A DNA stretch of 64,000 bases. Origin: Atriophallophorus winterbourni. Lineage: Eukaryota > Platyhelminthes > Trematoda > Plagiorchiida > Microphallidae. The first letter of the stretch is position 1. Every line of letters starts with the position of its first letter. Made by a program: the position numbers and the translations under genes. Shown here one piece after another: positions 263 to 60,720 of this stretch. The DNA is taken from assembly GCA_013407085.1 (NCBI GenBank), contig JACCGJ010019703.1, forward strand, positions 39,343 through 103,342. Direction: 5' to 3'. The notes beneath the pieces were generated by a model, which saw only the letters and a list, made by a program, of their open reading frames with translations, was not told where the DNA came from and searched no databases.

Positions 263-967
263 GTACAATTACTAGGCTTACATAATTTACACAGCTTAAT
301 TTGAGAAGATGATAAGGTTTTCGAGTGGATTTTCTCACCGGAAATAGTTAATGGATTCCACAGATATTATTATAATGAAAATGAAAAAAATAATGTTGAG
401 AGTATATGTTTAATATAAGCAGCGTAAATGTAATCGGTGAATTTGTATCACGTACGGAATTCGAGCAGCCCGAAGTGTAATTTACTGGGTGTTGATGAAG
501 TCACAAACAACCAATTTTTGAATCTTCGAATTTCTCTGGTATATTGAGTGATCTATAAAAACTTCTCAATTACATCATCAAAGAGGTTTAAAGGTGCTAG
601 AATAGGATAAAAAGTAGCCGTCTTGAGACCCTAATTCACGGCTTTCCATAATGCCATTCTTCATTCATACCGTGAAGCTTGATGCACCAGAGGCGTTCAT
701 GATAATTTATATAGACAATCTACAATTGACTATTTTAGGAGATCGATAGATTTATCCCAGTTATCCATGGCAGGAAACAGCCTGTTGAGCGGTTGATTGT
801 GAAACATTCGAGCATTTCAACATCGTGCTTCGTACTAAGAACCATCTCTAACTGTGCTTTTCGAGGATAATATTGTTTAGTTTTTTCCATAGCCGAGGCT
901 CAGTGAAATGGAAATTAAAAATATAATTTAATCTTCAAAGTAAAGTGTTGCTCATATTCCACGAATT

Positions 968-1012
968 TACACTCCACTACCGGTTCCTGTCTAATTGCCT
1001 TCATCAGGCGGA
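968..1012 (-). ncRNA. Degenerate hammerhead ribozyme, family 2
   Basis: Minus strand: stem I strand CTCCGC directly precedes the core CTGATGA. The site ACCGGTA is followed by GTGGAG, which pairs with CTCCGC over 6 bp including one G-U. The expected GAAA is reduced to GAA by a one-base loss, and stem II is disrupted, so this copy is probably inactive. The predicted cleavage point lies after the A of GGTA. Confidence 0.65.
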
Positions 1013-1035
1013 GACCGTGAGATTTGGTTCAGTTA

Positions 1036-1355
1036 ACCACTGGAACAGTGGATAAATGGTAAACAAAGTTATACTTGAATGCCACTGTTGCATAGGGTTC
1101 GTAAAACGAACCACAATGTTCAATTTCAGAATCACATAGTGATTCGAGGTCAAGCACAAAGGCGCTTATGGATGACCAAAGTAATGTGTTGCTCACTTCC
1201 AAATAAATTACATTCCACTACCGGTTTATGGCTGTTTGCTCTGCTTCACCACGAATCACTATGTGATTCTGTTTTTGAACATCGTGGTTCGTTGTAGGAA
1301 CCCTATGCAACAGTAGCATTCGTGTATAACCTTGTTTACCATTTATCCACTATTT
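1036..1355. repeat. Long imperfect inverted repeat (snap-back arms)
   Basis: The arm at about 1040-1155 and the arm at about 1250-1355 are reverse complements of one another over about 105-110 bp with few mismatches. About 95 bp separates them. The left arm is part of the hammerhead unit. The right arm is an inverted copy joined directly to the hammerhead at 1220, and unit 2 begins just after it. Inverted partial repeats are known in Penelope-like elements. The second tandem unit, ending at 5428, lacks the inverted arm. Confidence 0.8.
1207..1247 (-). ncRNA. Broken hammerhead ribozyme, family 2
   Basis: Minus strand: the stem II region GCAAACAGCC and the ACCGGTAGTGG 3' half remain. The 5' core CTGATGA is replaced where the inverted arm joins, and GAAA reads TAAA. 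It is homologous to the copy at 979 and 241 bp from it, so it is the second ribozyme of a tandem pair. It cannot be active as it stands. Confidence 0.6.
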
Positions 1356-1404
1356 CAAGGAAAATAATGTTAAGAGTATATGTTTAATATAAGAAGCGTA
1401 GGCG

Positions 1405-2877: not shown

Positions 2878-4359
2878 TACCATCGCTCCCTGTCTTTGAA
2901 AATTGAAGAAAACCCTAAACTTCTCTATCGGATTGCCAATGCTCGGTCCAGTGTGAAACCAGGGGTGTTTCCTGTTATTTCTGAGAATGGATTAACAGTC
3001 ACAGCAAAGGAAACGGCTGATACTCTCGCTCAATTTTATGCAAATGTGTTTAGCCCTATAACGGTTAGGGCGAATGAGAATTTACTGACATCGATTGTAT
3101 CTCAACAACTGAATGATATTGAGAATAATTCAGCGATTATACGAAGACACTTGTGTGGACTGAACCCTGGGAAATCTCCTGGAGCCGATGAAATAACACC
3201 AGCACTACTAGAATCCTGTGACCAGCAGCTGTGTGAACCACTATGCCAATTGTTCCAACATTCCCTAACCGAAGGAGTGTTGCCAACAGAGTGGAAGACA
3301 GGGGTAATTTCACCAATTTATAAGGGTGGTAGCCGTTTAGATCCCGCGAACTACCGTCCTGTCACCCTACTCCCCGTGATATCCAAAGTTATGGAGCGCA
3401 TAGTGACGGAAAATATAGTTCATCACTTAGAATCACGAAATATACCATTTGTCGCCCAGCATGTGTTTCGTAAAGCTCGCTCAGGCTTGGCAGACTTGCT
3501 GACGGTATTAAACGATTGGGCCCAAACGGTTGAAGCAGGAAACAGTATGCACGCGTGCTATCTGGATATGTTGAATGCTTTCGACAGAGTTGATCACTTC
3601 CTGTTGCTACAAGAGCTGAAACAGATTGGTATTGACGGGCAGGTACTCGTATGGTTCGAAAGCTACCTCTATGGGCGCAAGGCAACCGTTCGAGTTAACG
3701 GGGTACAATCACGAGCCATTAATACCTCCAGTGGTGTGCCGCAAGGTTCCGTTCTCGGTCCAGTGCTTTTCTCAGTTTACATCAATGATTTACCTGAGAC
3801 GCTCTCGTGCAAGGAAGTTCTTTTTGCGGATGATGTTAAACTTTGGATGCGAATAAAATCAATTGCAGACTGCGTAAAACTGCAAAGTGATTTAGATGCA
3901 CTACACGAATGGTCAGTTAGAAATAAACTGCCGTTCAATTTTCAAAAATGCAAGTTACTGCAAATCGGTAAGCCCTTTCAGTACGAATATCACTTTGGGC
4001 AAACGATTTTGAGCTGGACCGAATCAGAGAAGGATCTTGGAGTCTGGATATGTGGCAGCCTAAAGAACAGCGTGCATTGTGAGGTCATTTACAAGCGTGC
4101 TTCAAAGCTTCTAGGTATGCTTCGACGGATCTTCAGAACCTTTACGCCTGTAACGTTGCCAAGCATCATGGAGACCTACTTAATTCCCACAATGGAACAT
4201 GCATCGCAAGCATGGACTCCGTGGATGAAAAAAGATATATTCTTGCTTGACAGGATATATCATCGTGCAACTAAACTCGTGCGCGTTTTTCGAGACCTCA
4301 CATACGAGGAAAGGTTGAAAAAGCTAGATCTCCCCACTCCCCTTCAACGTAGACATTGA
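2878..4359 (+). pseudogene. CR1 ORF2, reverse transcriptase domain
   Basis: Same frame as the endonuclease. Visible blocks: LNPGKSPGADEITP (RT0/finger region), NYRPVTLLPVISKVMERI, YLDMLNAFDRVDH (motif A, catalytic D), SGVPQGSVLGPVLFSVYINDLP (motif B), EVLFADDVKLW (motif C, catalytic DD), EKDLGVWI and AWTPWMKKDI. A TGA at 4357-4359 stops the frame, but homologous residues continue to about 4495. The usual C-terminal block (N-C-R-R-x-F-F ... FK..LDKYL) is missing by deletion. The RT core itself looks intact. The protein would act on its own RNA at the nicked target. Confidence 0.92.
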
Positions 4360-5428
4360 AGTGACGTTATAATTACTTACAAGATATTGAATACTCCAGA
4401 TCATCCACTCAAACATTTGTTCAAATACCGTGAATCAGGAATTACACGTAGCCACTCAGCGCCACTACAAATTCCCCATTCCCGTACTAATTATTTGTTA
4501 CTAAACGATTTGACGATGCCTGTGTATTGACTCAGGGTGAGAATATTACTTGACTCCAGTGACATCGTATAATTGTTTATTTATACTTCTTATTAAACGC
4601 ATATTTACTATGATATGGTAATTGCGAAGCTATGTTCTTTTTGTGACCATAAATTCTTGAATCTTGAATTTTGTAATCAGTGAATTTTGATCACGTACCA
4701 AATTCGAGCAGCCCGAAGTGTAATTTACTGGGTGTTGATGAAGTCACAAACAACCAACTTTTGAATCTTCGAATTTCTCTGGTATATTGGGTGATCTATA
4801 AAAATTTCTCAATTACATCATCGAAGAGGTTTAAAGGTGCTAGAATAGGATAAAAAAGTAGCCGTCTTGAGACCCTAATTCACGGCTTTCCATAATGCCA
4901 TTCTTCATTCATACCGTGAAGCTTGATGCACCAGAGGCGTTCATGATAACTTATATAGACAATCTACAATTGACTATTTCGGGAGATCGATAGATTTATC
5001 CCAGTTATCCATGGCAGGAAACAGCCTGTTGAGCGGTTGACTATGAAACATTTGAGCATTTTAACATCGTGCTTCGTACCAAGAACCATCTCTAACTGTG
5101 CATTTCAAGGATAATATTGTTTAGTTTTTTCATATTCGAGGCTCAGTAAAATGAAAATGAAAAATATAATTTAATCTTCAAAGTAATGTGGCTGTTTTCC
5201 TTCCTCAGGCGGAGACCGTGAGATTTGGTTCAGTTTACCATTGAAACAGTGGATAAATGGTTAACAAGGTTATACTTGAATGCCTCTGATGTATAGGTTT
5301 CATACAACGAACCACGATGTTGGAACACAGAATCACATAGTGATTCGTGGTCAAGCACTAAAGGCACTTGTGGATGACCAAATTAATGTGTTGCTCTCAT
5401 CCCCGAAATTGCACTCCACTACCGGTTT

Positions 5429-5744: not shown

Positions 5745-5990
5745 ACCTGAAAAGATAATCAATCTTCAATTTATTTTCCTCCTACATAATCCCACCCGCA
5801 TCCATAACAATGTGTTGTGATACACTTGCATGGAAAACAATTGTTATACATGCGATTTGTTATGCAATTTTCCCTCTAAACAACATATTCATTTGCATGC
5901 AATTCCGTCACACCCCACGACCGGTTTCGTATTGTCTGCACTCATCAGCTAGGGGCAGTAAGATCAGGATCCGCATGCGCTCCTTGTTTT
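5745..5990 (-). repeat. Family 1 hammerhead unit
   Basis: This unit carries the family 1 landmarks: a GCATGCAAAT box at about 5890-5900 downstream of the ribozyme, the ribozyme itself at 5911-5956, and an upstream TCTTACTG and CGCATGCG block (5956-5980 on the plus strand). The rest of the unit has diverged. Confidence 0.7.
5911..5956 (-). ncRNA. Hammerhead ribozyme, best-preserved family 1 copy
   Basis: Minus strand: core CTGATGA (5948-5942), stem II GTGC...ATAC with an AGACA-containing loop, GAAA (5928-5925), the palindromic stem III ACCGGT (5925-5920) and C17 at 5919. Cleavage is predicted between 5919 and 5918. Stem I pairs CCCCTA upstream with TGGGG downstream, but the first pair is a G-G mismatch. 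All catalytic-core residues are present. A 3-bp palindromic stem III has no loop, so such ribozymes are expected to work best as dimers, as known for Penelope-type hammerheads. Activity is untested. Confidence 0.8.
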
Positions 5991-6508
5991 CCTATTCCCT
6001 CTGTTTTAGAGTTTAAATCATTGGAATTTGAAAGTCTCACGTTGAGAAAACTATTTGTGCATATTTCAAGTGTAACGGATGATTATTTGTTTAGATCAAT
6101 AGAGGCTAAATCTTCTGAACGTTTGTTACCTTGATTGCATTCATGTCGCAATAATAATCGATGCAATTCTAACCACGTCATTTCTCTTTTAACTTGTGGA
6201 TTGCGTAATAATACATTCCAGGGTTAATTGTTCCCAATGATACTCATACTCAGCCGAATAGTACGCAATAAAAGACAACAGTATTTAGTTAAGGCTTTGT
6301 TTACTTAGATGACCAGGAATAAAACACACGCTTAACCTTCATCGGAAAACGAGATAACACAAAAATCTATTCAGCGTGTCTGCGCCGTTAATCACCGTGA
6401 TTTGATCTGTTAAACCTTGTCAAATATTATAATAATGGTCTAAACCAAGTGACGCTAGATTTATTGTTCAATACTGGCGATCGTTTTACGTGTAATAAAA
6501 AGCAAGTA
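5991..6508. other. No recognised feature
   Basis: Unique-looking sequence between the hammerhead unit and the LTR element. No open frame with a domain is visible. The last bases (AGTA) may form a 4-bp target duplication with GGTA after 9080, with one mismatch. Confidence 0.5.
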
Positions 6509-6707: not shown

Positions 6708-6982
6708 GCACGAATCCTTCGTGTACTACTATTGGTAAGCCCAATATCCACGCAAAATTCGAGATTTTGTTAAGGTAAGTCTTTTCCCGATTTACATCGG
6801 CGTTATTTCAGGATAATTTTTTACCTATTTTAACACGTTTTACATCAAATCGTTATATGCATCGCATAACTAGACTTGTGGATCAATTCACAAGTCGGGT
6901 TAGAACACAACCTACAGGGCAGACAGTTTACTTTGTATATTGCTTGTAAGCCCCTCGTACATCAATCAACGGATCGTCGGGT

Positions 6983-7420
6983 ATGTACTCTCCTAGAGAG
7001 ACTATGCACCAGGATTTTGTCAGTCATTTTACGACTGACATACGATATATCTTAGGTGCCACATTTCCTATCCTCACAACGTGTGTGATAGACTGGCCAC
7101 TCTCCTTCGAACTCAGCGAAATCGCTGCAGTGCAAGCTACCGATGCCGACATCGCACAGCTTTGGGACGCCTATTATTTCATCACACCTCTCCCCTTGCC
7201 CGATGGCTTGGGCATTATCCTTTGCGATCTATCGCAAAGCGCTTTCCGACTACTTACCCTGTCTGCTTTTAGACGGCGTATTAGTCACACCATACGCAAT
7301 CTTTCCCATCCTGACATTCGTGCTTGTGTTATGTTTCATACGGGAAAATTTGTATGGTCGAAAGCCAGTGGGTACACGCAGCATGACACTGTCATGGCAC
7401 CTACGCTATTTGGGATAATA
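6983..7420 (+). pseudogene. pol remnant: RNase H end to integrase N-terminus
   Basis: The plus-strand frame starts with SPRE and continues HFTTDIRYI, the junction after the Ty3 RNase H domain. It then gives IDWPLSFELSEIAAVQATD (spacer) and NLSHPDIRA, the H-x-H part of the integrase HHCC finger, followed by FVW. Several frame changes near 7180-7280 and after 7350 break it. The expected catalytic DDE core of the integrase does not follow. The similar Ty3 fragment at 63.3 kb has the same SPREIRHLDYISQ junction. No functional protein can be made. Confidence 0.75.
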
Positions 7421-7599
7421 ACCGCTTGTACATCAAGTATATACCCACAATCCGCCATCTCCACAGTGAGTATGCGCCCGGAACGAGGGGTATTTAACAC
7501 GTTATTATCGCTTGGTAAATCCCGTGCATCTTTTTGTACCTCATCACTATAACTCGGTCGTGGCCAAAAATCCGTGCACCAGAGAGATTTTTCTTCTAA
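7421..7599. other. LTR element interior, start of a dispersed internal duplication
   Basis: From about 7525 to 7680 the sequence resembles 8208-8370. The two share GTACCTCAT, CTCGGTCGTGGCC and GTGCACCAG/ATGCACCAG landmarks. This indicates an internal segmental duplication in the element. No protein domain is visible. Confidence 0.5.
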
Positions 7600-7945
7600 C
7601 TTCTCAGGCACACATGCACCTCCAGCTTTGGAAAACGTGGCACGCGCCACCCCCGGATCACCGAAGCTTGTCGCCATCCTATCCAGTAACATGAAATACA
7701 CGCATCCTTCGTGTATCCCCTCGGTACGCATGTACCTCCCGCTGTGGAAATCGTGGCACGCGGCACCCCGGGATCACCGACGCTTGTCGCCATCCTGCCC
7801 GGGTAACCTGGAATGCATGCATCCTTCGTGTATCCCCTCGGTACGCGTGCACCTCCCGCAGTGGAAACCGTGGCACGCGCCACACCCGGATCGCCGACAC
7901 CTGTCGCCATCCTCCCGGTAGCCCCTACCATCAGCACACGCCGCA
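7600..7945 (+). repeat. 117-bp tandem repeat, about 2.9 copies
   Basis: Copies start at about 7607, 7724 and 7841. Each contains ACCTCCCGC, GTGGCACGCG, CCGGATC and CTTGTCGCCATCCT. 117 is a multiple of three, and one frame reads through all copies as a 39-residue repeat rich in P, H and R (THPSCIPSVR in each). It is much richer in GC than the flanks. The unit may derive from a gag-like or low-complexity coding part of the element. Function unknown. Confidence 0.85.
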
Positions 7946-11499: not shown

Positions 11500-12165
11500 T
11501 TCACTGGTCTGTGCGAAACTGAAGCTCCCACACACGAGATTTCACCGCACCAAATTGTCTACTAAGCCTAGGGTAGACGTCAATCGCATGTGCGAACCTA
11601 ATCTAACTGAGAGATTCGCAAAAGCCTTCACGGACGAGTTCATCAAGACAACCCCACTTGAATCTGCTTCAGAAAACTGGGAATTGATAAAAACTGCATA
11701 TGCCGAGTCACATTTTCCACTTTCGGTCCGAAGAAAGTTCGAACGAGCGACTGGTTCGATGCAAACGCTTCTGAGATGACTGCTGTGCTGGATGAGAAAC
11801 GCTCAGCATTCTTGAGGTTCAAAGGTATGCCAACAGATGAAAACTTACGTCTTCTAAGAGCAGCTAGAAATAGGGTTTAACAGACTGCAAGGCGTTGTGC
11901 AAAGGACTATTGGACTGAAGTTAGCCTCAATATCCAAAAAGCTGCGGATAGCGGCAATTTTCACGGTATGTATGATGGGATCAAGAGAGCCATTGGCCCA
12001 AACAAACTTAAAACGGCTCCCAATAAGTATTTACCTGGCAAGCCGATTGTCGACAAAACTCAACAGACGGAAAGATGGGTAGAGCACTTCTCCTCCCTCT
12101 TCTCTAGGGACAGTACGGTCCTTCCGCATGCACTTGAAAATGTCGAACGGTTGCCGACCATTGAA
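11500..12165 (+). pseudogene. RTE linker between endonuclease and RT
   Basis: Fragments in two frames: KLSTKPRVDVNRM and FTDEFIK near 11555-11690, ENWELIKTAYAES near 11680, then GMYDGIKRAIGPNK, VDKTQQTERWVEHFSSLF and VLPHALENVERLP near 11960-12160. This is the conserved region before the RT fingers in RTE elements. It contains two frameshifts and a TAG at 12166-12168. Confidence 0.8.
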
Positions 12166-12168
12166 TAG

Positions 12169-13890
12169 CTAGATACCCCTCCTACCCTTGATGAGCTCAA
12201 TAAGGCAATCGACCGCTTAGCGAATGGGAAGGCCCCTGGTGACGACGGAATTCCACCTGAGTTCATCAAATGCTGTAGAGCAGCCTTATTACAGCCTCTT
12301 CACCATTTGCTTGTTCAGTGCTGGCAGGAGGGGGGTGTCCCACAAGAGATGCGAGAAACAAAGATCATCACGCTATTCAAGAATAAGGGTGACAGAGGCG
12401 ACTGCAACAATTACAGAGGAATCTCCCTTCTGAATGTTGTAGGCAAATTGTTTGCTAGAGTCTTACAGATCCGGCTGCAAGTTTTAGCTGATAGAATTTA
12501 CTCCGAATCTCAATGTGGCTTCCGCAAGGGAAGATCAACCGTTGACATGATCTTCTCCCTGAGACAACTTCAAGATAAGTGTCGGGAACAGCGTATGCCA
12601 TTATACGCTGTTTTTATTGATTTAACTAAGGCATTCGACTACGTCAGCAGGAAGGGTCTTTTCAAAATGCTTGATCTGATAGGCTGCCCCCCAAGGCTGC
12701 TGAGACTCGTTAATTCGTTCCACTCAGGCATGAATGGCTCAGTCCATTTTAACGGTTGCAGTTCAGAAGCATTTGAAATTCGCCGAGGCGTCAAACAAGG
12801 GTGTGTTTTTGCTCCCACGCTGTTCGACATTTTCTTTGCTCTGCTTCTGAAGCACGCTTTTAAGACGAGAACAGAAGGCATTTACATACACACGCGAAGT
12901 GACGGCAAGCTTTTCAACCTGAACCGGTTGAAAGCACAAACCAAAGTACGGGATGTGATAATCCGTGACCTGTTGTTTGCCGACGATGCAGCCTTTATTG
13001 CTCACTCTCTAATGGACTGTTTTTCGTCGGCATGCAAAGACTTTGGTCTAACAATCAGCATGAGCAAGACCAAAGTCCTTGGTCAAGGGAATGTATCGCC
13101 ACCAATCATCACTGTTGAAAACTGTCAGCTCGAACCAGTACATCATTTCACATATCTTGGTTCAACCATTGCGAATAACCTCTCGCTAGACACGGAGATT
13201 GATAAGCGGATTGGCAGAGCAGCTGTCATTTTGTCCCGATTGAACTCTCGTGTTTGGGGTAACCGCAAGCTGACTGTAAAGACAAAGATGATGGTATACA
13301 GCGCGTGCGTACTAAATGCTTTACTATACGGCAGTGAAACCTGGGCCACCCACGCAAGACACGAACGGAAGCTGAATGCTTTCCATCTACGAAGCATCCG
13401 TCGTATCTTGAACATATCGTGGATGGACAGAGTGACTAACGCTGAAGTGCTTTCAAAAGCTGGTCTACAGAGCATGTTCACCCTATTACGTCAGCGCCGC
13501 CTGCGGTGGCTTGGTCATGTCTATAGAATGGAAAATGGTCGTATTCCGAAAGATCTACTCTACGGTGAGTTGCAATTAGGAAGTCGACCATTGGGCAGAC
13601 CGCACTTGCGGTACAAAGATGTTTGCAAAAGAGATATGAAAGCTCTTGACATTGACCCCGCAAGCTGGGAAGAACTTGCTCTTGACCGCTCACTTTGGAG
13701 GCATTGTGTAAAGCGTCGACTGCAAGCCGGGGAGGAGCAAATACAGCTCCTGGCTGCTGAACGCAGATCACGCCGCCGGCGTGCAACTGATGCAATACAA
13801 CAGAGTTCTGACTATCGTTGCAAGCGCTGTGGGAGAGATTGTTCCTCCCGAATCGCACTGTTTAGTCATTCAAAATGTTGCAAAACATGA
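12169..13890 (+). CDS. RTE reverse transcriptase and C-terminal zinc-finger region
   Basis: One uninterrupted frame of about 573 codons to TGA 13888-13890. Blocks in order: GKAPGDDGIPPEF, NNYRGISLLNVVGK, QCGFRKGRSTVDMIFSLRQL, FIDLTKAFDYV (motif A), RRGVKQGCVFAPTLF (motif B), LLFADDAAF (motif C, DD), FTYLGSTI and GSETWATHARHERKLNAFH. These are followed by the conserved GHVYRM region and GRPHLRYKDVCKRD. The end carries CKRCGRDCSSRIALFSH-S-K-C, a CxxC…H…C finger. All catalytic residues are present. The intact frame suggests fairly recent activity, though the upstream endonuclease is broken. The first ATG at 12307 is not a natural start. Confidence 0.93.
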   Translation, partial: LDTPPTLDELNKAIDRLANGKAPGDDGIPPEFIKCCRAALLQPLHHLLVQCWQEGGVPQEMRETKIITLFKNKGDRGDCNNYRGISLLNVVGKLFARVLQIRLQVLADRIYSESQCGFRKGRSTVDMIFSLRQLQDKCREQRMPLYAVFIDLTKAFDYVSRKGLFKMLDLIGCPPRLLRLVNSFHSGMNGSVHFNGCSSEAFEIRRGVKQGCVFAPTLFDIFFALLLKHAFKTRTEGIYIHTRSDGKLFNLNRLKAQTKVRDVIIRDLLFADDAAFIAHSLMDCFSSACKDFGLTISMSKTKVLGQGNVSPPIITVENCQLEPVHHFTYLGSTIANNLSLDTEIDKRIGRAAVILSRLNSRVWGNRKLTVKTKMMVYSACVLNALLYGSETWATHARHERKLNAFHLRSIRRILNISWMDRVTNAEVLSKAGLQSMFTLLRQRRLRWLGHVYRMENGRIPKDLLYGELQLGSRPLGRPHLRYKDVCKRDMKALDIDPASWEELALDRSLWRHCVKRRLQAGEEQIQLLAAERRSRRRRATDAIQQSSDYRCKRCGRDCSSRIALFSHSKCCKT

Positions 13891-19139: not shown

Positions 19140-19542
19140 TAACAACATCATCCCTTAAAACATTTATTCGAATACCGTGATTCACGTCATACACGCAGCC
19201 ACTCAGCGACACTGCAAATTCCCCACTCCCGTATCAGCTGTCGCCGATATTTTTATTGTGTACGTGTCTGTTTCCTTTGGAATTCCCTACCCGAAACTCT
19301 TGTCATCTCTCCCAGCATCGGAACGTTTATTCGAAATTTGGATACTTATTTGTTGCATAACGATTTGACGACACCTGCGTATTGACTCATGGTAACTATA
19401 CAACTTGACTATACTTGACATTACATGTTTATTTTATACCTATTTCCTGAATGTAAATTTACTATGATATGGTAATTGTGAAGCTATGTGCTCTTTGTGA
19501 CCATAAATTCTTGAATCTTGAATCTTGAATCTTGAATCTAGT
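19140..19542 (+). mobile_element. CR1 3' end, 5'-truncated
   Basis: The block from CATCATCCCTTAAAACATTT through CAAATTCCCCACTCCCGTA matches 4395-4495. It encodes scraps of the CR1 C-terminus. It continues into the 3' UTR (GACACCTGCGTATTGACTCA; ACTATGATATGGTAATTG) and ends with four TTGAATC-type repeats at 19510-19540. It keeps the C-terminal sequence that the 1.4-4.7 kb copy has lost. Confidence 0.85.
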
Positions 19543-25689: not shown

Positions 25690-25925
25690 ATTCACAGCAA
25701 AATACCGTTCTACTAGTTGCGCTTGTACGCCACTGTTGGATAAGATTCGTACGAACAACCTGTTCAATCCCATAGGCACACACTCATGTAGACGGAGGTT
25801 AAACCTATGACTATGAACAAAAAGCTCATCTGCATGCATCTCCAACACACAACCACCCCACGACCGGTTTTGTGCTGCTTGCACTCATCAGGTTGGGACA
25901 GTAAGACCAGCATCTGCTTGCGTTA
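25690..25925 (-). repeat. Family 1 hammerhead unit, complete
   Basis: Same order as the array at 42.1-42.6 kb: CTTGTACGCCACTGTTGGAT, ACGAACAACCTGTTCAAT, ACTCATGTAGAC, AAGCTCATCTGCATGCATCT, then the ribozyme. Unit length is about 235 bp. Non-coding. Confidence 0.8.
25853..25898 (-). ncRNA. Hammerhead ribozyme with one core mutation
   Basis: Minus strand: CTGATGA, stem II GTGC-AAGCA-GCAC (four perfect pairs), palindromic ACCGGT, C17, then GTGGGG. The first G of GAAA is A (AAAA), a change at the invariant G12. Strong loss of activity is expected from hammerhead biochemistry. Confidence 0.75.
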
Positions 25926-26089
25926 AACTGTATACAAATGATATACAATGCAATAAACACACATAAACACACAAACATTCCATGTTACAATCTCACTTGC
26001 AGAGGCACCGGTTTGTGAACCTAAAAATAATATGCAAAGAATGAGTGAATGAGAAATAAATCTCATAAATGATAAGAAATTTTCAGCAA

Positions 26090-26256
26090 GATTAATGTAT
26101 AGATTAATATAAATATATCTAGTTGATCGATCCATAAGTAGATTCATAGATAGGTAAAAGATCAGATCGAGATAGAAATAGCAAGATAGAAAAAATAGAG
26201 AGGAATGTAAAAATAAATAAATCAACGAGAAGGCATATGTAGAGATTGAAAGATAC

Positions 26257-26351
<95 letters not shown>
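26090..26351. repeat. (GATA)n microsatellite with decayed flank
   Basis: About 24 perfect GATA units at 26255-26351, preceded by a GATA-like, interrupted stretch from about 26090. It abuts the hammerhead unit that starts at 26352. The minus-strand translation is a run of IYLS and is not a gene. Confidence 0.95.
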
Positions 26352-26352
<1 letters not shown>

Positions 26353-26480
26353 CACTGTTTACCATTCTTTTACTGTTTCAAACGCATGCGAATCCTGATC
26401 CCACTGTGCCTACCTGATGTGTGCAAACAGCACGAAACCGGTCGTGGGGTGTGTGATGGAGATGCATGCAAATGTGCTTT
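26352..26480 (+). repeat. Family 1 hammerhead unit, partial
   Basis: Starts with CTGTTTACCATTCTTTTACT right after the GATA array, then CGCATGCGAATCCTGATC, the ribozyme, and GATGCATGCAAATG. Opposite orientation to the unit at 25690. Confidence 0.8.
26405..26451 (+). ncRNA. Hammerhead ribozyme with A9-to-T change
   Basis: Core reads CTGATGT (26414-26420) instead of CTGATGA. Stem II GTGC/GCAC is perfect, GAAA (26434-26437), ACCGGT (26437-26442), C17 at 26443. Stem I pairs CCTAC with GTGGG. Position A9 takes part in the catalytic core, so activity is probably lost. Otherwise this is the closest copy to the family consensus. Confidence 0.8.
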
Positions 26481-27488
26481 TTTTATTGAGCATATATTTT
26501 AAAATCATGCTAAGAATATCATGGAAAAGTCACTAGAATATTTAACCTAAAATTTATTTCACATGTCAAGGGTCGACGGGAATGATTTTGATGCTCCAAC
26601 ATAGAATTGTGAAAATAGCTTTTTCCGAATTATATTGAATCACGATTCTAAATTGATCATATGCAGCAGTGATAGATCCCTGTCTTATCTTATTTTTAAC
26701 CATTTAAATGATGTTAATACTGCGCTTTTTCGCGATCTATGTATCAGAATATCTGTAGAACTCGAAAAATGTTTCAACTGAATTATTCGCTACAGTAATA
26801 TCGGGCACTCACGGGCAACCAGTTTCGACTGTTCTAAAAATGTTTTTCAACAATGTATTTATTGTAAAATATTTATTTAGCTTGCTTGTAATCTTGTTAT
26901 TCACTGGTTGAATTACTTAAAATATTAATGTGAAATATCAGCTGTTATGTATTGAAGAAATAAGCACAAATCCTGGATGATGATTATTACTTATATGAAT
27001 TTCCTGTCCTTCAACGTTTTCACTAGTTTGCAATAAATGAAAAGAAGGTGCTAATTATTTCAAACATGTTTCTGCATTCAGCGCAATTTTGATTTTAGAA
27101 AGATGATTCAGAAGGTTAGAAGTTTTAAGGCAGAGTCCTCAGGCTGTTATATTATATTTGTTTTTGGTGTAATACCGGAGATCCTACAGTTGATTTCAAT
27201 TTATTTCGAAGTTGATCATCAAGTAAAAACGCTAAAATTTATCTCGTGAAACATTTGAATAATCCGACACATGAACATAAAAGTATATTCATTACTGAGA
27301 ATTCGATTCTTAAGTTTCTTACATGGTGACGTTATGTTTAAGTAGAATCATACCGATTGTGATTCATCTTACCTTTTTCAAGATCAATCAAACCTGCAAT
27401 GAGTTTAGTTGTGTATAAAAATTGATAACGTGTAATACCTAATATTTAAATTGTTTGGAACTTGAAATTTATTAATGGTTTAATGTCA
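26481..27488. other. No recognised feature
   Basis: AT-rich, no domain or repeat identified. Confidence 0.4.
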
Positions 27489-27731: not shown

Positions 27732-27910
27732 AATGATTAAATGTTTGCAATTTTGAATATTTAAGTATACATAAATTCCGTGGTATGAATGTTTGGTTGC
27801 TTGTATTATTTTTTACCATTGGCGTTATTAACGGCAATATTATTTTCGCCATCTTATGAGCTCAGCCCTACTCAGAATTATGGCAGAAATCGTAGAAATG
27901 AACTACAACA

Positions 27911-27985
27911 CAAATGAGTGCAAACAGCACGAAACCGGTCGTGGGGTGTGAATGACGGAAAAGCATGCAAATGAATATTTTGTTA
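27911..27985 (+). ncRNA. Hammerhead ribozyme, 5' half lost
   Basis: The 3' part is perfect: GAGTGCAAACAGCAC (stem II), GAAA, ACCGGT, C17, GTGGGGTGTG and a downstream GCATGCAAATG box. The core start reads CAAATGA instead of CTGATGA, and the upstream stem I strand is missing. The boundary inside the core suggests truncation there. Confidence 0.75.
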
Positions 27986-29778: not shown

Positions 29779-30334
29779 TATATATATAATTGTGAGCAGC
29801 AACTTTCATTCATTCAAGTTTGAACTTGCAGATTTGTCTGTGTATGAGTGTTTCTTTTTATGAATCATAAAATCAACCATTTTTACGGAAAAGGAATGAA
29901 AACATCGCAGTACACAGAAGACCACACGGGTTGCTGTCGGTATCATGGAGGCATGCTGAATCGAATGTTAGATATGATTCATTTCCAAAAAAATCCGCCG
30001 ACCAAAATGATTTTCAAATACTCGTTTTTCATAGCAACTATGATTAAAATTCACAGTTATCTATAATTTGATGAATTTTCATAGATATCAGAGTCCATAT
30101 AGTCTACTAATATTTTACTATACTATGATCTCAACAAATGAAGGCAAACTCCGGTAGAAGCTATGTTGGAACTGTGTTAGCAACAAACACTATCTTTATC
30201 TCTCTGATAAATTCTGAATAATTAACAAGTCAGCTTCTATGCCTAAAAACGATAATATACAAGGGATAAATTATCAATCATGATTGAAATGACGATTAAC
30301 GTCAGTGTCTGGCAGCACGTACAACAGAGTTTTC
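27986..30334. other. No recognised gene; AT-rich
   Basis: Holds a (TA)n microsatellite at 29746-29789. No domain or element recognised elsewhere. Confidence 0.4.
29746..29789. repeat. (TA)n microsatellite
   Basis: About 20 TA units with small interruptions. Confidence 0.9.
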
Positions 30335-30375
30335 AATACGGATCCTGATCGTACTGTCTCATTTGATGACTATAA
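30335..30375 (+). ncRNA. 5' half of a family 1 hammerhead unit
   Basis: ACGGATCCTGATCGTACTGT followed by CTCATTTGATGACTA corresponds to the block upstream of the ribozyme and to a CTGATGA core with a T for C. The 3' half is absent. Confidence 0.5.
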
Positions 30376-30549
30376 AAAAATATATAAACTATCCGGTTTT
30401 TGTGTACGAAATTTGGTATTATTCCATTGATTAACCTGAGCCATGTGTTTTTGAACGTGATTCAGTAGGTTGTTATGAAAATCATGCTCAACAGTAGCTC
30501 AAAATTTCAAAGATATTTAACATTTGTCCGTTGTTTCCAAACGGATATT

Positions 30550-30640
30550 GATCGTAAAGTAGCTACCAGATAATTGCAAACAGTACGAAACCAATCGTAA
30601 TTTGTGAGGATCGGAAGGAAATGCAAGCAAATACGGATGT
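30550..30640 (+). ncRNA. Decayed family 1 hammerhead
   Basis: GATCGTAAAGTAGCTACC, then CAGATAATTGCAAACAGTAC, GAAACCAATCGT and AATGCAAGCAAAT keep the order of the family. The ACCGGT stem is mutated to ACCAAT, and the CTGATGA core is damaged, so it is inactive. Confidence 0.65.
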
Positions 30641-35735: not shown

Positions 35736-35850
35736 AATTTATTTGTATTGTGGTGCTCACATCCCCATCCCTTACACAACACCACCGATTTCTAGCTGTT
35801 TTCCGTCATCAGGTGAAAACAGTAAGATCAGGTTCAGTGAGCGTTGAATC
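35736..35850 (-). ncRNA. Hammerhead ribozyme, family 2-like, with changed cleavage site
   Basis: Minus strand: AACCTGATCTTACTGTTTTC, core CTGATGA (35812-35806), a weakened stem II, GAAA, ATCGGT (one wobble from ACCGGT), then G at position 17. G at the cleavage site is not tolerated by hammerheads, so this copy is expected to be inactive although its 5' core is intact. Confidence 0.65.
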
Positions 35851-36064
35851 CATCAATTGTTTCTCATTTCAATGAATAGAGTATATTTTATTACATTTAT
35901 TGACCAAACAAATATAAAATAATTCAATAGATTAACTAACCTTTTCTGATATCTTTCATTCGCTTTCGATATTCTGTTTTTAGAACAGCACAATGACATT
36001 TATTAATCTAGACTATGTTTGAAACATTAATAATACGAGCATTCCAGATTTAAATATAGAATGC

Positions 36065-36268
36065 GAATAAACAAGTTGAACTTGCATGCCACTGTTGGAT
36101 AATGTTAGTACGGCCAACCTGTTCAATCACATGAGCCCACACTCTTGGAGACAGTGTTTAAAACCATGACCTTGAAGGACAAAGCTGATTTACACGCATT
36201 TCACATCACACCTACACACCCAAATACCGTTTCCGTGCTGTTTGCACCCATTACACATACACACGTGC
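36065..36268 (-). repeat. Family 1 hammerhead unit with decayed ribozyme
   Basis: GCATGCCACTGTTGGATAA, CCAACCTGTTCAATCACATG, CCCACACTCTTGGAGACAG and ACGCATTTCACATCACACC follow the unit order seen at 25.7 and 42.1-42.6 kb. In the ribozyme (36211-36262, minus) stem II GTGC...GCAC is kept, but CTGATGA reads TAATGG and GAAAC is shifted by an extra G. Confidence 0.7.
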
Positions 36269-41904: not shown

Positions 41905-42102
41905 CCCCGTTTGAGATTCAACAATTTATGTTCACGAAAAGCACATAGCTTCACAATTACCATATCCTAGTAATTATTTGTTCAGGAAAAAGGTATGAAA
42001 CAAGCATGTACTGTTAAGCATAGTCCAGTTGAATACTTACCATGAGTCAATACGCAGGTGTCGTTAAATCGTTATTCAACAAATAAGTATCCAAATTTCC
42101 AT
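41905..42102 (-). mobile_element. CR1 3' UTR tail, strongly 5'-truncated
   Basis: The reverse complement of this stretch matches 19320-19500: TGGATACTTATTTGTTG, AACGATTT-ACGACACCTG and CGTATTGACTCATGGTAAGT. It ends in a decayed TTGAATC repeat at about 41908. Only the UTR remains. Confidence 0.8.
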
Positions 42103-42155
42103 CACACTCAAATACACCGGTTTCGTGCTGTTTACACTATTTCGGTAGGGATGCA
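42103..42155 (-). ncRNA. Hammerhead, array copy 1 (3' half intact)
   Basis: GTGTAAACAGCAC, GAAA and ACCGGT are present on the minus strand. The core CTGATGA reads CCGAAATA, and position 17 is G. Confidence 0.65.
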
Positions 42156-42332
42156 GGATCAGGATACGCATGCGTTTGAAAAAGTGTAAGAATGGTAAAC
42201 AACTTGAGCTGGTATATCACTGATGGATGAGGTTAGTACGACTAACCTGTTCAACCACATGGGCCCACATTCATGTAGATAGGATTCAAACCAATTATCA
42301 TGAACGAAAGCTCATGTGCACGCATTTCCATC

Positions 42333-42385
42333 ACACACAATTCATGACCGGAATCTTGCTGCTGCACTCATCATATAGGGACAGT
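42333..42385 (-). ncRNA. Hammerhead, array copy 2
   Basis: Minus strand: CCCTAT then ATGATGA (C3 changed to A) and a stem II with changed bases. GAAAC is altered to GATTC and ACCGGT to TCCGGT. Confidence 0.65.
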
Positions 42386-42517
42386 AGTATCAGGATTCGC
42401 ATGCGCTTAAAACTGTAAAAGAAAGGTGAACATGTTGCGCTTGTATGCCACTCTTGGGTAAGGTTGGTACAACCAACCTGTTCAATCACATGAACACACA
42501 CTTATGTTGATAGTGTG

Positions 42518-42562
42518 TGAACACAACCATCGGTTTCCTGCTGTTTGCACTAATCCAGTAGG
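42518..42562 (-). ncRNA. Hammerhead, array copy 3
   Basis: Minus strand: CTGTCCCTA, then CTGGATTA in place of CTGATGA, GTGCAAACAGCAG and GAAACCGATGG. Core and cleavage site are both damaged. Confidence 0.6.
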
Positions 42563-42600
42563 GACAGTAGACTTAGAATACGCATGCTGGAAAACGGGGA

Positions 42601-44089
42601 GATTATGGTTGACTGGCGCTTTGAACACCGTTATTTCTAATTGTCTTCGTGAGAACCGCTAAATGACCTTATCTGCTGAATACCTATTACGAAAACAACT
42701 TGCAAATCATCATTATCGAAATACTACTGCTGTAGCAATGAGCGTTGCGAAATGTTTTGGTACTTGGTAATCGGGCTCTATGGTAAATTAAAACGCAGTG
42801 GAGCATGATATCTTCACGCGCTTGCTATGTTCATCCGTGTACAATATTTAACAAATGTCAAACACAATTATTTCGAATAATATTGATGCACTTTGGATAT
42901 TTTGCCGTCCTATTTATCAAAAATAGCTAAAAATTATCTTTGTTTTGCGCATGTATGTGCTAGCTTCTCTTATCTATAAGTTTGACTTCATTCACATTTT
43001 AGAATTTTTTTATGACATGCAATTGTAAAGTTTCAGATAGTATTTTTGGAAACAAATTTTTACTGAGAGAGCTAATGTGAAATGTAAAACTATACACCTA
43101 ACTTGTTAAGAAAGTTCATTGAATGATATTGTTGTAACTTTTTATGGATAGGATATTATACATTCTCATTAATTATAGGATGCTTTACCATATGTTCTCT
43201 ATCAGCTATCCTTAATATTTTGAGAATGAGGGAGGTAATATAAAATACTTGAATTACGATATCATGCGAACCTCTGTGAAAATAGATTAAGGTTTTCAGA
43301 ACAGTATACAACATACCGGTAAAAATGTTTTGTTGAACTATATGAAAAATGTTAAAACTTATGAATTGACAAATTTTTTATGGTATTGATGTTTTTCTAT
43401 ATTATATTGCATTGAATTGAGCTTACTTATATTTCCTACATCTATCCATTTGTATTAAAATTTGTGAAGAAAAATGTTGAAAAGCAGTTAGTGATTTGCT
43501 AATTATTTCCATAAAAGTTAAGTCTAGTGCCATCAACATAATGTCTAGTGCAATCACTTAATGTTTACATGAATTTTCTGGTTTATTTGTGCAGAAGAAA
43601 ATATTTGAATTATTATTGTATAAGGTGAATCATTAGGAGCACAAATCAAAAATAGATAATATCGTCAGGATCGTCACTAATAAATTGCGAATAAAAATAG
43701 AATCTAAATTTCTTTCGCATTTCGAAATCGATTCTATGATAAATATTTTGGTGAGTTTCCATAGATTCGCCTGTATTGATGGTAACAAACGTTGTGTTGA
43801 AATTACTTTTTTGATTTCAAAATAGTGAATTAAAATTTCGTAGTTTAAAAGAATATATAATTTTCTTGGCAGATGTTAACTTTCATTTCAGTAATATGAA
43901 ACGTATCGCACTCGTACACTTACTGCAACATGAAATCGCATTTCATAAATTTGTTCAAAATAACAAATTATATTAGAAAATTCACGGTTAGGTAAAAACA
44001 CACTAGGCAATTATGGAAGGTTTTAGGAAAACATTGTGGCCACGACAATATGCGCAGGTGGTGAAACACATTGGCATAATAACTTTCAC
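42601..44089. other. No recognised feature
   Basis: AT-rich. Nothing recognised. Confidence 0.4.
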
Positions 44090-44660: not shown

Positions 44661-45939
44661 TCATTTTATTACTTTACTTACAAATGTTCGTAGACTTTAT
44701 TTTTGCTTTTTTTCTTCTTTCTTTTGGCGATAGTCTATGCTAATTTTGCAGTACATATTCTCTTGTATTTTATCTTATATTCTATACTATTCACTTGCGA
44801 TTTCTCCGCATTTCTTTCAAAAGACTTTTGTTACTCAGACGTTGCATCCGGATAATTTCACGTGCAAGCTCTATTAATTATATATGAAAAATATCATGAA
44901 ACAAAATATTTTCTCGTGCGATCGGTTTATAAATACTATTCTCGATGATAATTTCTATCCTTGCGTAAATATATCCTTAAAAGATAATCTTCCTTAAAAA
45001 CTCGTGCAAAACACATAAAATGCCAACTAGAACGTCATCATATCGCAGGTCATTTATCCCATTTGCGTCACGATAACATTGCTAAACTTAACTGTTTATT
45101 AAACATTTGCAATTTAATTTATCTGGTTGATATCATGTGTAAATTTTCTGCGAATATTTTTCTGTTATGTGTAACCTGTCGAATATTCATTGTGTTTATG
45201 ACACTGGTCTGAAGGGGAAATTTCAAAAAATTTCGAATAAATCCGTTTCTTTCAAACATCTCAAATTGTTTCATTTCTAAGGAAACAAAGAATATAGCTC
45301 AGAAATGTATAATAAATTTAGCTTATGCTTTTGAAACTATTTTTAGTTAAAAGCGTTGTTGCTTAATTACATTATTACCCGACATTCAAAACAAAATGTA
45401 ACAAACTCACGATTTCCATATGCGACTAATTATAAGAAAGTAGCGTTAAGGATTTTAAAAAGTATAAAATGCAAATTAATGTGACCACTTTGATGCAATC
45501 AAAACTTAAAATACTGCGTTTGGATTTACTTTGACATTCGTTAGATATTAAAGACACATTGTTTATGGGGTCTGTGTTATGCGAAATAGATTTTCTGCTA
45601 GATTCTAGTATAATATCTAGTAAGTAGATATTCTATGTTCAATGATACAAGCTAAATAATCTCTTTGTTTTGTTGACGAGCAGCCAAATGTTAGCCTCAT
45701 TTGATACAGTATAAAATGTTAGTACATTTCTATCGCGTATTATAAACCAAGTATATATCTTGGAGATAGACGGATGAATGCTAAGCGACAAATAGAAATT
45801 ACCCCAAAAACAAACACATTCAGAAATCCACTATGTTTAAACATGTGTGCCTTAGATGAAGCTAAACTTACAAAAGGCAAATTGAATTTCATAAAGTAAA
45901 TCTCATAAAGAGTATCTGAATATTGATGCTGAAAAAATT
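44661..45939. other. No recognised feature
   Basis: AT-rich. Nothing recognised. Confidence 0.4.
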
Positions 45940-46000
45940 GCACAAATTCATGACCGGTTTTTGTGCTGTCCGCAGACATCTGCTTTTTGCGCTACATTCA
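45940..46000 (-). ncRNA. Hammerhead 3' half, decayed
   Basis: Minus strand: GACAGCAC, AAAA for GAAA, ACCGGT, C17 and a stem I strand ATGAATTTGTG like array copy 2. The CTGATGA core has become CAGATGT. Confidence 0.55.
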
Positions 46001-46159
46001 AGATCCACATCTATGAAGTCATTGACTAATTGGTTAATTAAAGTGTAATGTTCAAGCAATTCTTATACAAGTTTAGTTTGACCAAACTTTAAATCACGTG
46101 TAGGTGATGAAACATTTAAAATAAAAAATAATCGATTTGACGTTTTTCAATTAGTTATC

Positions 46160-47756: not shown

Positions 47757-48340
47757 CTCACTCTCTTTCTGGATATCTCGTTAATGAAGGGATCAGCGTC
47801 TTTATACATTCACACGCCAACATATAAACGCCGTTCATTAAAGGAACTTTTTTAAATAAAGAATAGTATCCGGGAGAGAAATTAGTATGAATTTGGCTAA
47901 AGCATTTTATAAGTACGATTTTTGATTTTGAACATGGACAACATAGCCTTTTCTTGCCTACATGAATTGAAAAATCTAGTCCGAGCACACGTTTTGATCG
48001 GTCGAAAATATCTTCTGTTGCGAGCCTTGTGTTCAAAAATGGGCTGGCCGTTGTTAGAGAAATTCACCATTAGTGTGCTATAAAATCCTCCAACTACACA
48101 CCACAACTGGCACTTGTCCGTTTGTCGTCTTCATTTGGAGTAAAATTAATCCTACTTAGTCTTGAATCGGTGGAAATCTGTAAACAGAGTTAGACTTAAA
48201 GACGGCTTCAACGTTTGACTTTGTTTTACCAGTATTCCACTGTTGCACAGCTTATTAAAACTAACTTCAGAGACTCTAACTAATGATAGCAACCAGCCGA
48301 AACCACTTGTTATGTGCAAGTACGGAGATGTGAGCATCAC
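47757..48340 (-). pseudogene. Unrecognised coding-like remnant
   Basis: Two overlapping minus-strand frames look protein-like and would join by one frameshift near 48030: VNFSNNGQPIFEH in one and RVLGLDFSIHVGKKRLCCPCSKSK, then INEISRKRE-like residues in the other. Codon composition is richer in C and G than in the flanks. I do not recognise a family. It could be a transposase piece, a Penelope-related piece (Penelope RT and hammerhead traces lie within 1.5 kb) or an old host exon. Confidence 0.3.
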
Positions 48341-48589
48341 GATTCTATAATTGATTCAGTTCACGAAGCGCACTTAAGTGAGTATCCGGTTGTTTCTGGA
48401 AACAAAGAATTTAACAAATCAATGATAAAAGCTGTTGATTGCTTATTCAAAAAGCATCAAACTCAGTGTCTAAACGGCGATTAGAATTTTTTAATTCATT
48501 TTTAACATAGTTTCCGGAATAAACTGCCGGCGTCTTGGCCACACAGACGAATCGTACAGTGGAAAACCGAAAGCACAAGATCTACAAAA

Positions 48590-48670
48590 TCCATATTTTC
48601 CATCGCACACACAAAAGAATGGTTTCGTATTGTTTGCACTCAACATTTAGGGGAAATACGATGTTATCGG
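48590..48670 (-). ncRNA. Decayed hammerhead unit
   Basis: Minus strand: GAGTGCAAACAATAC, GAAAC and CATTC in place of CGGTC, followed by TGTGTGCGATGGAAAA. The core CTGATGA has decayed to ATGTTGA. Inactive. Confidence 0.5.
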
Positions 48671-49049
48671 CAAAGTTATACATTTTCTTGATAAGATTTC
48701 CTCGGATGATTCTGATAATTATAGTAACAATACGCGATGTTCAATTCTGAATTGTCCGAACGACCCACAAGTGCGAATACCGTATTGTAATTGTAAAAAG
48801 CATGATTCAGTCTTAGCTGGCGATGAAAGTTTACAATAATTCCTATTATTAAATACATCATAGAGAAGATATGAGTGCACCTAAATGAAGATTCGCAAGA
48901 ATTATTGGGTAACTGAAAATAGAGATACATCATGAATAACTATAATTATTATTTCTAGGTATTTACCTAGTGCTAACTACAATTTTAGTCACTAACCTCA
49001 ATTCATCTTTTATATAACTTAACTATCCGCAAGCTCAGTTTTAAACGGC

Positions 49050-52409: not shown

Positions 52410-52500
52410 TCAAAGCTCACTGAACCTGATCTTACTGTCTCGACCTGACGATGGCAAACAGCCTGAAACCGGTAGTGGTGTTTAAGGGATGGGGATATGA
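52410..52500 (+). ncRNA. Hammerhead ribozyme, family 2, core intact
   Basis: Plus strand: upstream AACCTGATCTTACTGTC as in family 1, core CTGACGA (52445-52451; position 7 is free in hammerheads), stem II TGGC-AAACA-GCCT with a T-T mismatch at its base and three good pairs, GAAA (52465-52468), ACCGGT (52468-52473) and A17 at 52474, so GTA is the cleavage triplet. Stem I pairs CGAC with GTGG poorly. The invariant core residues are all present. Weak stem I and the 10.1-11.1 mismatch are the doubts. Confidence 0.75.
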
Positions 52501-53624
52501 GCACCACAATATTTTGGTCGATTCAATGATGTTCAGTTGAATGTATGAAAACAATATGATGTTTTAAACTGACCTTTAAATACAATTCTTTCGACTGTGG
52601 AATATAGATTTAAGTTAGCTTCATTAAAGCTAAATTTTCCTTTATAAATAATATTAAAACTTGAAAGTCGTTTATTATAAATGCTTACTTCTTGTATTTA
52701 TATCCGGATTTGGCATATAATTCGCAACTAGATAGGGTTGTATTTTAAGAGTTAGTTGATTAATCGTTATGGAGGAAAATGAAATATGCATATTTTAAAT
52801 TCATTATTAGGAAAGAGGTAATACATGGAGAATTTATGTAGAGTGATTACTGTACAATCATGATGACGGTCACATAATGATGAAAAATTGTGAGTAATAC
52901 TAATATGTTCAATTAGTTTATTGTTTAACTTAATAATATCGGGAGGAAGCAGAGAATAGCGGAACTAATAGAAATAAACTGTATAAAAGAATTTCTGTCA
53001 AGGGCAAACTCATCAATGTCTTACTGTTTTTCGGTAAATCGTTGATATCTGCGTGCAGATGCAAGATGTTATTATTGTTATGAATACAACAAAACATACA
53101 AAAATTTAATATTCAAAAAAATCTTTTGTTTGAATTTTTAGTTCAGCAGTATTATTATTTAGATAATATTTATGTTCAAATAAACGAGGTTCTTTACATC
53201 AGAAAATAAACTATTTGCTCTCAAACGCATAGTTATTAATGACCTATTCTCATTGAATCGGTTTCTATACAGCTCCTCTCGGAGTCATGAATCGTCTTGT
53301 CATGACACTCGATCATGTTCAATATTGAAAACATAAGAAAAGATCACACACAGCAGTTTCATATTTATAACTTCACCATCTTATTACTAACGAACAGAGT
53401 TAGTTTTCTGATCAAAAATCAACTCTCGAATATGGTAAATGATAATGTGCTAACTCTGTTCTTCCTTGTTATTCGATGAATTTAAATGAATTCTCAATTT
53501 TAATATGTTATCTACAATATTTAATACGGCGTGAAAATATATATCAGAGATTATTTCTATAATTGTGTGAATCTCCTTGAATTAATCGCATAAATATGGA
53601 TCGCTAAAGAAAATATTCAATAAA
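52501..53624. other. No recognised feature
   Basis: AT-rich. Nothing recognised. Confidence 0.4.
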
Positions 53625-57065: not shown

Positions 57066-57190
57066 TAAAAACGGCTTTATTTTCTCAAGTCATCATTTAT
57101 TTGCTCAATCGATCAGTCCAAAGCTCTCAGAAATCGTCGGCTGACGCATCTTCTTTCGTCGGATCTCGTTCATCTCGTTGTCTAGGCCGA

Positions 57191-57744: not shown

Positions 57745-57977
57745 TATGGACTGAATAGTTTGAAAAATAACGATGTCACTGTTGTGAGTGTCTGTTTGTG
57801 CGCGCGCTTTCGTGGGTCTAGCTATCAATACTTAAAGCTAGAGTAGGAAAGAGGCTTGTCGTTGTGCTGAGGTGATTGGCTTGTTGTAGCTGGCGTCAGG
57901 GAGAAACATCGCGTGTTTGACCTTGAAACCGGCTGACTATATGCGTAAAATGCGCAAAAATGCACTTTTAAATAATC

Positions 57978-60199: not shown

Positions 60200-60720
60200 A
60201 AATAAGTTTGTGGAACCCTCCAAACTAAATCAGGTTCAAACTTATGAGCTAATCTTGTGCTGGCACCACAAAACTCTTCAATCATATTAGCACACACTCG
60301 CAGATCAGATAAGCCAATTGGTTTCAAACAAAAATCTCTATTTGATTTCAGTTTCACCACACGCCCGATTATCGGTTTCTTTCTGTTTTCATTCATCAAA
60401 CATAGACATTATATTCAGAATCCACATGCCTTGAAACGATGGAGTAACGGTGATACAACAGCTAGTGAGCGCAGCCTTTAACCCTTTGTCTACTGATGGT
60501 AACTCTATTTACCACCTCAAACAAGCAGTCGATTGCTCAGTAGCTCACGTCGGTACCTTCAGTCAACATCGGAGTGCACTTGTTAGGCGGCGTCTGACAT
60601 CTGATCCATAATAATTAATCATATGTTTCATTTATGCCATAATTAAGCAGAATAACACAAAAATATCATAATATAGTATATCCAATTACCGTAGACAAAG
60701 GGTTAAATCGAACAAGTTCA
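60200..60720 (-). repeat. Decayed family 1 hammerhead unit containing a MITE
   Basis: CTTCAATCATATTAGCACAC, CTCGCAGATCAGAT and TTGGTTTCAAAC follow the unit order. A decayed ribozyme lies at 60358-60412 (minus strand GATGAATGAAAACAG, GAAACCGATAAT) and TTGAAACGATGGAGTAACGG lies beyond it. The unit is then broken at 60478 by the MITE. Confidence 0.55.
60482..60702. mobile_element. piggyBac-type MITE, 221 bp
   Basis: Terminal repeats CCCTTTGTCTAC and GTAGACAAAGGG are perfect. They are flanked on both sides by TTAA (60478-60481 and 60703-60706). TTAA target sites and CCC ends are the signature of piggyBac elements. The interior is non-coding. Confidence 0.9.

Follow-up and report, generated by a model that had tools for sequence, protein, structure and literature searches.

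At positions 5911..5956 of the window (the whole 64-kb stretch of DNA analysed), the minus strand reads like a hammerhead ribozyme. The question raised by this locus is which kind of element carries such a sequence and how its copies came to be scattered. Very probably, the hammerhead belongs to an old family of metazoan non-LTR retrozymes, non-coding retroelements of about 180-240 nt whose transcript is predicted to fold into a type I hammerhead. Duplications, copies cut short inside the ribozyme, a 5′ inversion, and a single LINE fusion in this family appear to record how the insertions were made.

Read on the minus strand from 5948 to 5919, the given hammerhead consists of CTGATGA, a 13-nt stem-loop, GAAACCGGT, and C. 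It comprises CUGAUGA (5948-5942), stem II with its loop (5941-5929), GAAA (5928-5925), the helix III sequence ACCGGU (5925-5920), and C17 (5919). Every base of the type I core (C3 U4 G5 A6 N7 G8 A9, G12 A13 A14 A15.1, U16.1 H17) is present, in agreement with the first-pass annotation, which had reported a complete core in hammerhead order; by that order, the predicted cut falls at 5919/5918, where it had been placed. Flanking stem I strands had also been described. These are paired as inner helix I in the family consensus, but in the given copy stem I is open at the core, with G.G at 2.1/1.1. Its stem II is weak, with 3/4 pairs. A published curation rule drops matches that are mispaired at 1.1/2.1, 10.1/11.1, or 15.1/16.1, and its rejects are mainly mutant hammerheads within repeated elements (PMC3088659, excerpts). 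The given copy would fail this strict filter through the G.G beside the core and is, judged by its sequence, a decayed member of the family.

Iterated nhmmer detected 20 stretches of the family in the window at E<0.05. A covariance model built from 14 copies, which match it by construction, gave 19 matches below an E value of 0.01 and 21 below 1. The mutated family is real, although the thirteen scattered copies counted earlier have to be replaced by the 20 stretches of nhmmer or the 19 of the covariance model. Seventeen of the 20 stretches were aligned, without 30339, 5191, and 52337, which look broken within the ribozyme; an alignment of 14 copies also omits 27912, 36216, and 1210, which have no 5′ box. 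The commonest bases of the 17-copy alignment, CCCTAC CTGATGA GTGC AAACA GCAC GAAACCGGT C GTGGGG, form a canonical type I hammerhead in which all fixed core bases are in the majority. Most other positions are majorities too; the pluralities are 2.1 C and 17 C (8/17 each) and 1.5 G (7/17). Every stem position of the consensus is paired, those adjoining the core in stems I, II, and III included. Inner helix I has six pairs (one U-G) and stem II four (GUGC-AAACA-GCAC), while helix III is minimal, with one A-U pair closing the palindrome CCGG (A-CCGG-U). A consensus that keeps every core base and pairs in all inner stems bears out the reading of a type I hammerhead within a repeat family.

All 11 fixed core bases occur together in three of the 17 copies (5974, 52420, 35837). 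Two of these have H17 as well; the third carries G17, which the published rule disallows (PMC3088659, excerpts). None of the 17 passes the strict filter. A core base is changed in 14, G17 excludes another, and the two that remain are mispaired beside the core, with G.G at 1.1/2.1 in the given copy and U.U at 10.1/11.1 in 52420. Judged by these changes, the copies in the window are dead or nearly so. The highest-scoring copy (26381..26473, plus, 97.4 bits) has a perfect stem II, GUGC/GCAC, and A9 changed to U. An AGAT microsatellite lies just upstream, at 26243-26351, and similarity to the unit seems to begin at its end. About one full unit with a hammerhead is found at 25707..25948 (minus; G12 changed to A). 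The subfamily B copy at 52412..52505 (plus) has a complete core, A17, and U.U at the base of stem II. Decayed copies were found with the covariance model at 60341..60432 (minus), 48247..48338 (plus, with subfamily B-like boxes), 48588..48679 (minus), and 45925..46015 (minus), and a faint further copy at 27157..27255 (minus) with an E value of 0.0034. One copy with an internal deletion (5156..5241, minus) belongs to the second of two duplicated arms that flank a LINE.

Outside inner stem I sit the GCATGC boxes, which can pair mutually as an outer helix I; in the given copy they are located at 5973..5978 (5′ box, minus) and 5895..5900 (3′ box, the partner strand, minus). The same boxes had been ascribed to all copies. 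Exact GCATGC on both sides is present in just two copies of the 14-copy alignment. Inspection by eye revealed boxes GCTCAC/GTGAGC with pairing kept in 35774(-), GCTCAC/ATGAGC with 5/6 pairs in 52420(+), and GCTTAT/GTGAGC with 6/6 pairs, wobbles included, in 48258(+). On the evidence of these alignments, the boxes form the opposite strands of an outer helix I and differ between subfamilies, which makes the extended helix I an instance of covariation. One pair of the box helix is AU in five copies and UA in four, another AU in four and GC in four. Over the 14 copies, a 24-pair structure, drawn from these same related, decayed, and not independent copies, is paired in 68.9% of its cells, compared with 29.5-42.0% when partners are slid by one to three columns. 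Column shuffles were modestly exceeded: 19 of 500 reached the observed percentage of pairs, 28 of 500 the covariation score, and nine of 500 the number of cells changed on both sides. They revealed no excess in pairs changed on both sides (368/500 as high) or in pair types (436/500). Support for covariation in the boxes and helices is good but not overwhelming, because the shuffles were exceeded only modestly, the structure was drawn from the same copies, and the copies are not independent. The first-pass annotation had named lack of covariation and of intact cores as what would count against a ribozyme; on the sequence side, the core is kept in the consensus and the helices vary on both sides, with the modest shuffle control just given. 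On folding five single copies, only 26384-26470 folded clearly better than its shuffles (z -2.5), the other four giving z values from -1.25 to +0.89. The best fold of 26384-26470 contains the outer helix and lacks the exact hammerhead inner fold. The family has a 5-nt loop II (AAACA) and, within helix I, an internal loop, the candidate partners for the loop 1-loop 2 tertiary contact expected of a metazoan non-LTR retrozyme.

Units are arranged in tandem at three places. Between predicted cleavage sites, the three hammerheads at 42100..42640 (minus) are 182 and 231 nt apart, and the two at 947..1241 (minus), of which the upstream one breaks off near stem II, 241 nt. A decayed pair at 30331..30630 (plus), of which the first member has a covariance-model E value of 0.16, gives a distance of 198 nt. 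The GC content of these four monomers is 0.34-0.43, and units of 182-241 nt would be too short for a long ORF. Outside the ribozyme, the unit contains a hairpin, GGTTNGT/ACNAACC, the middle pair of which is CG in two of eight units, AU, GC, and GU in one each, and unpaired or gapped in three. RNAalifold assigns this hairpin a weak energy of -2.5 kcal/mol, its covariation term being unfavourable, and finds no further consensus structure in the unit.

Unit size, tandem layout, GC content, and duplications where present agree with the metazoan non-LTR retrozymes, so that the repeat seems to be a new family within this established kind of element and not a new kind. For a repeat family with a type I hammerhead, the analogues named in the first-pass annotation (Penelope-like elements, schistosome Sm-alpha repeats, and retrozymes) were the right neighbourhood. 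Sm-alpha repeats are repeated DNA with hammerheads, proposed to be mobile, to which the family can be likened by description. The annotation had left the family unplaced; its anatomy puts it among the metazoan non-LTR retrozymes (PMC7229834, excerpts). The units of animal retrozymes are about 170-400 nt long and low in GC (Cervera and de la Pena 2020, PMC7229834, excerpts). As in those elements, a type I hammerhead is present in small tandem non-coding units, of 182-241 nt here, GC is below 50%, and the duplications, where present, exceed the 4 bp of plant LTR retrozymes; unlike in those elements, most copies here are single, truncated, and decayed (PMC7229834, excerpts). The helix III of one pair and a palindromic tetraloop, A-CCGG-U, is shared with HHR_Amex1 and HHR_Amex2 of newt and axolotl, and the U.U at the stem II base of copy 52445 has its counterpart in HHR_Amex2, but the units there are 330-350 nt long and very numerous (PMC7229834, excerpts). 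By description, the schistosome W-elements are also similar, being repeated DNA, in some families with hammerheads, and proposed to be mobile (PMC8490949, excerpts). An exact-pattern search in viral contigs and prokaryote genomes, which are non-animal collections, gave no relative of the family, as expected for an animal repeat. An origin from a tRNA-derived SINE was considered and rejected, ARAGORN finding no tRNA in the window.

In the proposed cycle, tandem transcripts would be self-cleaved to monomers. This would probably take place in dimers, since two copies of ACCGGU are complementary to each other and a lone helix III is very short. Cleavage of this kind has its published precedent in the axolotl (PMC7229834, excerpts), and by analogy the newt-like helix III of the family may need dimers. 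A host ligase would close the monomers into circles, and the reverse transcriptase of another element would copy a circle or multimer and insert the product, giving single, truncated, and tandem copies. LINEs and Penelope-like elements have been named as possible helpers, the latter as a strong candidate (PMC7229834, excerpts).

Penelope-like elements offer another origin as well: the hammerheads might be remnants of their terminal repeats (pseudo-LTRs), which carry minimal type I hammerheads. Those hammerheads occur in tandem and may cut as dimers (PMC7761336, excerpts), and the minimal helix III of the family consensus would fit. The likeness to the hammerheads of Penelope-like elements and Terminons extends to type I, minimal helix III, and the dimer model (PMC7761336, excerpts), but helix I and loop II are complete here and the ORFs scanned show no Penelope gene nearby. 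The minimal Penelope variants are described without helix III or loop-loop contacts (PMC7761336, excerpts), whereas the short, non-coding units here possess loop II, an outer helix I, and an internal loop within helix I. Among the 19 ORFs scanned, out of 61 ORFs of at least 95 aa in the 64-kb window, no Penelope-like gene was seen and no GIY-YIG domain was found. The same scan of 19 of 61 ORFs gave three reverse transcriptase regions, two beside APE-type endonuclease ORFs and a third in an ORF with RVT_1 alone. The region at 2878-4359 lies between the hammerhead-bearing repeats, beside an APE-type endonuclease ORF and antisense to the hammerhead pieces. An origin from Penelope terminal repeats is unlikely on these grounds.

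The breaks and joints of the copies suggest, as far as sequence can tell, insertion by a reverse transcriptase, as in the retrozyme reading. A 117-nt insertion is proposed around the given hammerhead (5878..5994, minus), flanked by 8-bp direct repeats AGAGGGAA at 6002-5995 and 5877-5870; by eye, no match to the unit is seen in the 16 nt that separate the 5′ box from the proposed duplication. A hammerhead-only insertion of 106 nt at 35740..35845 (minus), with boxes GCTCAC/GTGAGC, is flanked by 13-bp duplications AATTGATGGATTC at 35846-35858 and 35727-35739; it carries G17, and therefore no cleavage is expected. The insertion at 27913..27983 (plus) is 5′-truncated, starting inside CUGAUGA, between 9-bp duplications TACAACACA at 27904-27912 and 27984-27992. 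Duplications of 13, 9, and 8 bp were thus seen at three of nine loci, and random flank pairs match as long at frequencies of 0.0008, 0.0066, and 0.018, the flank windows of this control having been chosen after the duplications had been seen. The best flank match at the remaining six loci is 4-6 bp, which is chance level; two of the six lie inside arrays, where none is expected. A search of 12 sets of flanks for direct repeats gave, beyond these three, best matches of 5-7 bp, and no convincing repeat around the LINE fusion.

A further unit (36067..36252, minus) is 5′-truncated inside the hammerhead. Copies that start within the ribozyme are those at 27913, about 36253, and 1241, and these starts fall within a few bases of one another, between about A6 and 10.1, which would fit a preferred stopping point of the reverse transcriptase. 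An inverted unit piece of 116 nt (1242..1357, plus) is joined to the truncated end of copy 1210-1241. This 5′ inversion shows the pattern known in LINEs as twin priming. By eye, five copies seem to end about 16 nt past the 3′ box (5909, 27912, 35774, 52420, 969), of which only 5909, 27912, and 35774 are backed by a duplication, and other copies continue past the 3′ box into the unit. No copy that could be placed by eye begins or ends at the cleavage site, and ends away from that site fit a circular or uncleaved template.

Spread by DNA recombination, as a plain satellite or segmental duplication with the ribozyme as passive cargo, would account for the three tandem places and for the copies carried by a large duplication (429-1160, 4672-5361). 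It would not account for copies dispersed on both strands, some with duplications and truncation, or for arrays of only two or three hammerheads, and we regard it as very unlikely. Still less credit is given to a miniature inverted-repeat DNA transposon, the boxes of which would be short inverted arms that happen to surround a hammerhead-like sequence. The 106- and 117-nt elements do carry inverted arms close to their ends and lie between direct repeats, but the duplications vary in length (13, 9, and 8 bp), one copy without the 5′ arm still has a duplication, about 16 nt extend beyond the 3′ arm, tandem units and 5′ inversion occur, and the arms enclose stems I and II, which in the consensus make up a canonical ribozyme.

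The strength of the hammerhead signal was assessed with a family-blind descriptor (full core, at least 4/6 stem I pairs, at least 3/4 stem II pairs, and the second helix III pair). It matched twice in the 64-kb window, at 5948(-) and 52445(+), both family members, whereas 400 first-order Markov resamplings of the window gave 17 with one match and none with two. With one core mismatch allowed, eight sites were found, compared with 12 resamplings that averaged 1.2 sites and reached at most 3. Four of the eight are in the family (5948, 25891, 26414, 52445), and the other four are somewhat above the resampling level. Rfam gave no match within the window at curated cut-offs. Below the gathering score of 34, the type I model RF00163 matched 5913-5954(-) with 23.0 bits and 26408-26449(+) with 22.2 bits. 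These are the only type I listings in the window at E values up to 10, and both are family members; their E values are 0.48 and 0.89 over 4227 families, or about 1e-4 and 2e-4 by simple division for one family. A chance resemblance, with which the sub-threshold Rfam matches would agree, is barely credible given two full-core descriptor matches that both fall in the family, a number reached in 0/400 resampled windows, and pairing far above the controls with slid partners.

As to the enzyme that may have moved the retrozyme family, TGGAAAT closes the array at 42.1-42.6 kb, and a LINE 3′ end follows on the same strand (41914..42099, minus). This LINE piece is joined to the array's 3′ end in the same orientation, with GAAAT common to both at the joint, and is related to 19333-19518, 4494-4664, and 58405-58486. 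A template jump would produce this joint, as would a later DNA deletion with microhomology. The joint, a single one, suggests that a LINE enzyme is able to move the family. In a tentative model, possible although somewhat doubtful, LINE enzymes would move animal retrozymes by starting on LINE RNA, jumping at a few shared bases to circular or multimeric ribozyme RNA, and running round it to give tandem copies (41914-42640); starting just downstream of the ribozyme and stopping just past it would give the insertions of about 106-117 nt. If this is true, such near-hammerhead-only insertions would be among the smallest retrotransposed units known to us. In LINE-made chimeric retrogenes, another RNA is joined to a LINE copy by a template jump in the course of reverse transcription (PMC2104539, excerpts); the partner here would be a tandem ribozyme RNA, and the window holds one case. 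The LINE fusion and the hammerhead-only insertions are features for which the excerpts of PMC7229834 hold no description.

Several other elements are present in the window. The direct repeats 429-1160 and 4672-5361 (pieces 95, 96, and 86% alike) flank a CR1-like LINE with ORFs at 1696-2877 and 2878-4359. The hammerhead pieces found in each arm run antisense to this LINE, the tail of which, TTGAATCTTGAAT, ends about at the start of the second arm. Two long inverted LINE copies lie at 12032-13840 and 49417-51587 (pieces 86-92% alike), with a reverse transcriptase ORF at 12169-13890. Named relatives of its protein among the best 120 listed include lancelet (Branchiostoma), oyster (Crassostrea), and crab (Eriocheir), and those of the second LINE protein, also among the best 120 listed, include Paragonimus, tapeworms, birds, and turtles. 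A 117-bp tandem repeat (7613-7918, 2.6 copies) overlaps several ORFs; the one scanned ORF beside it, at 6950-7552, has no Pfam match. A Pogo/Tigger transposase fragment with CENP-B and Tc5 DNA-binding domains is located at 57127-57831 (minus), and the named relatives of the transposase among the 48 listed include damselfly, amphipod, and tunicate. The named relatives of the three proteins do not agree on one group, and the transposons as a whole indicate an animal host. At 63124-63519 (plus) lies a reverse-transcriptase RNase H fragment (PF17917), perhaps the remnant of an LTR element.
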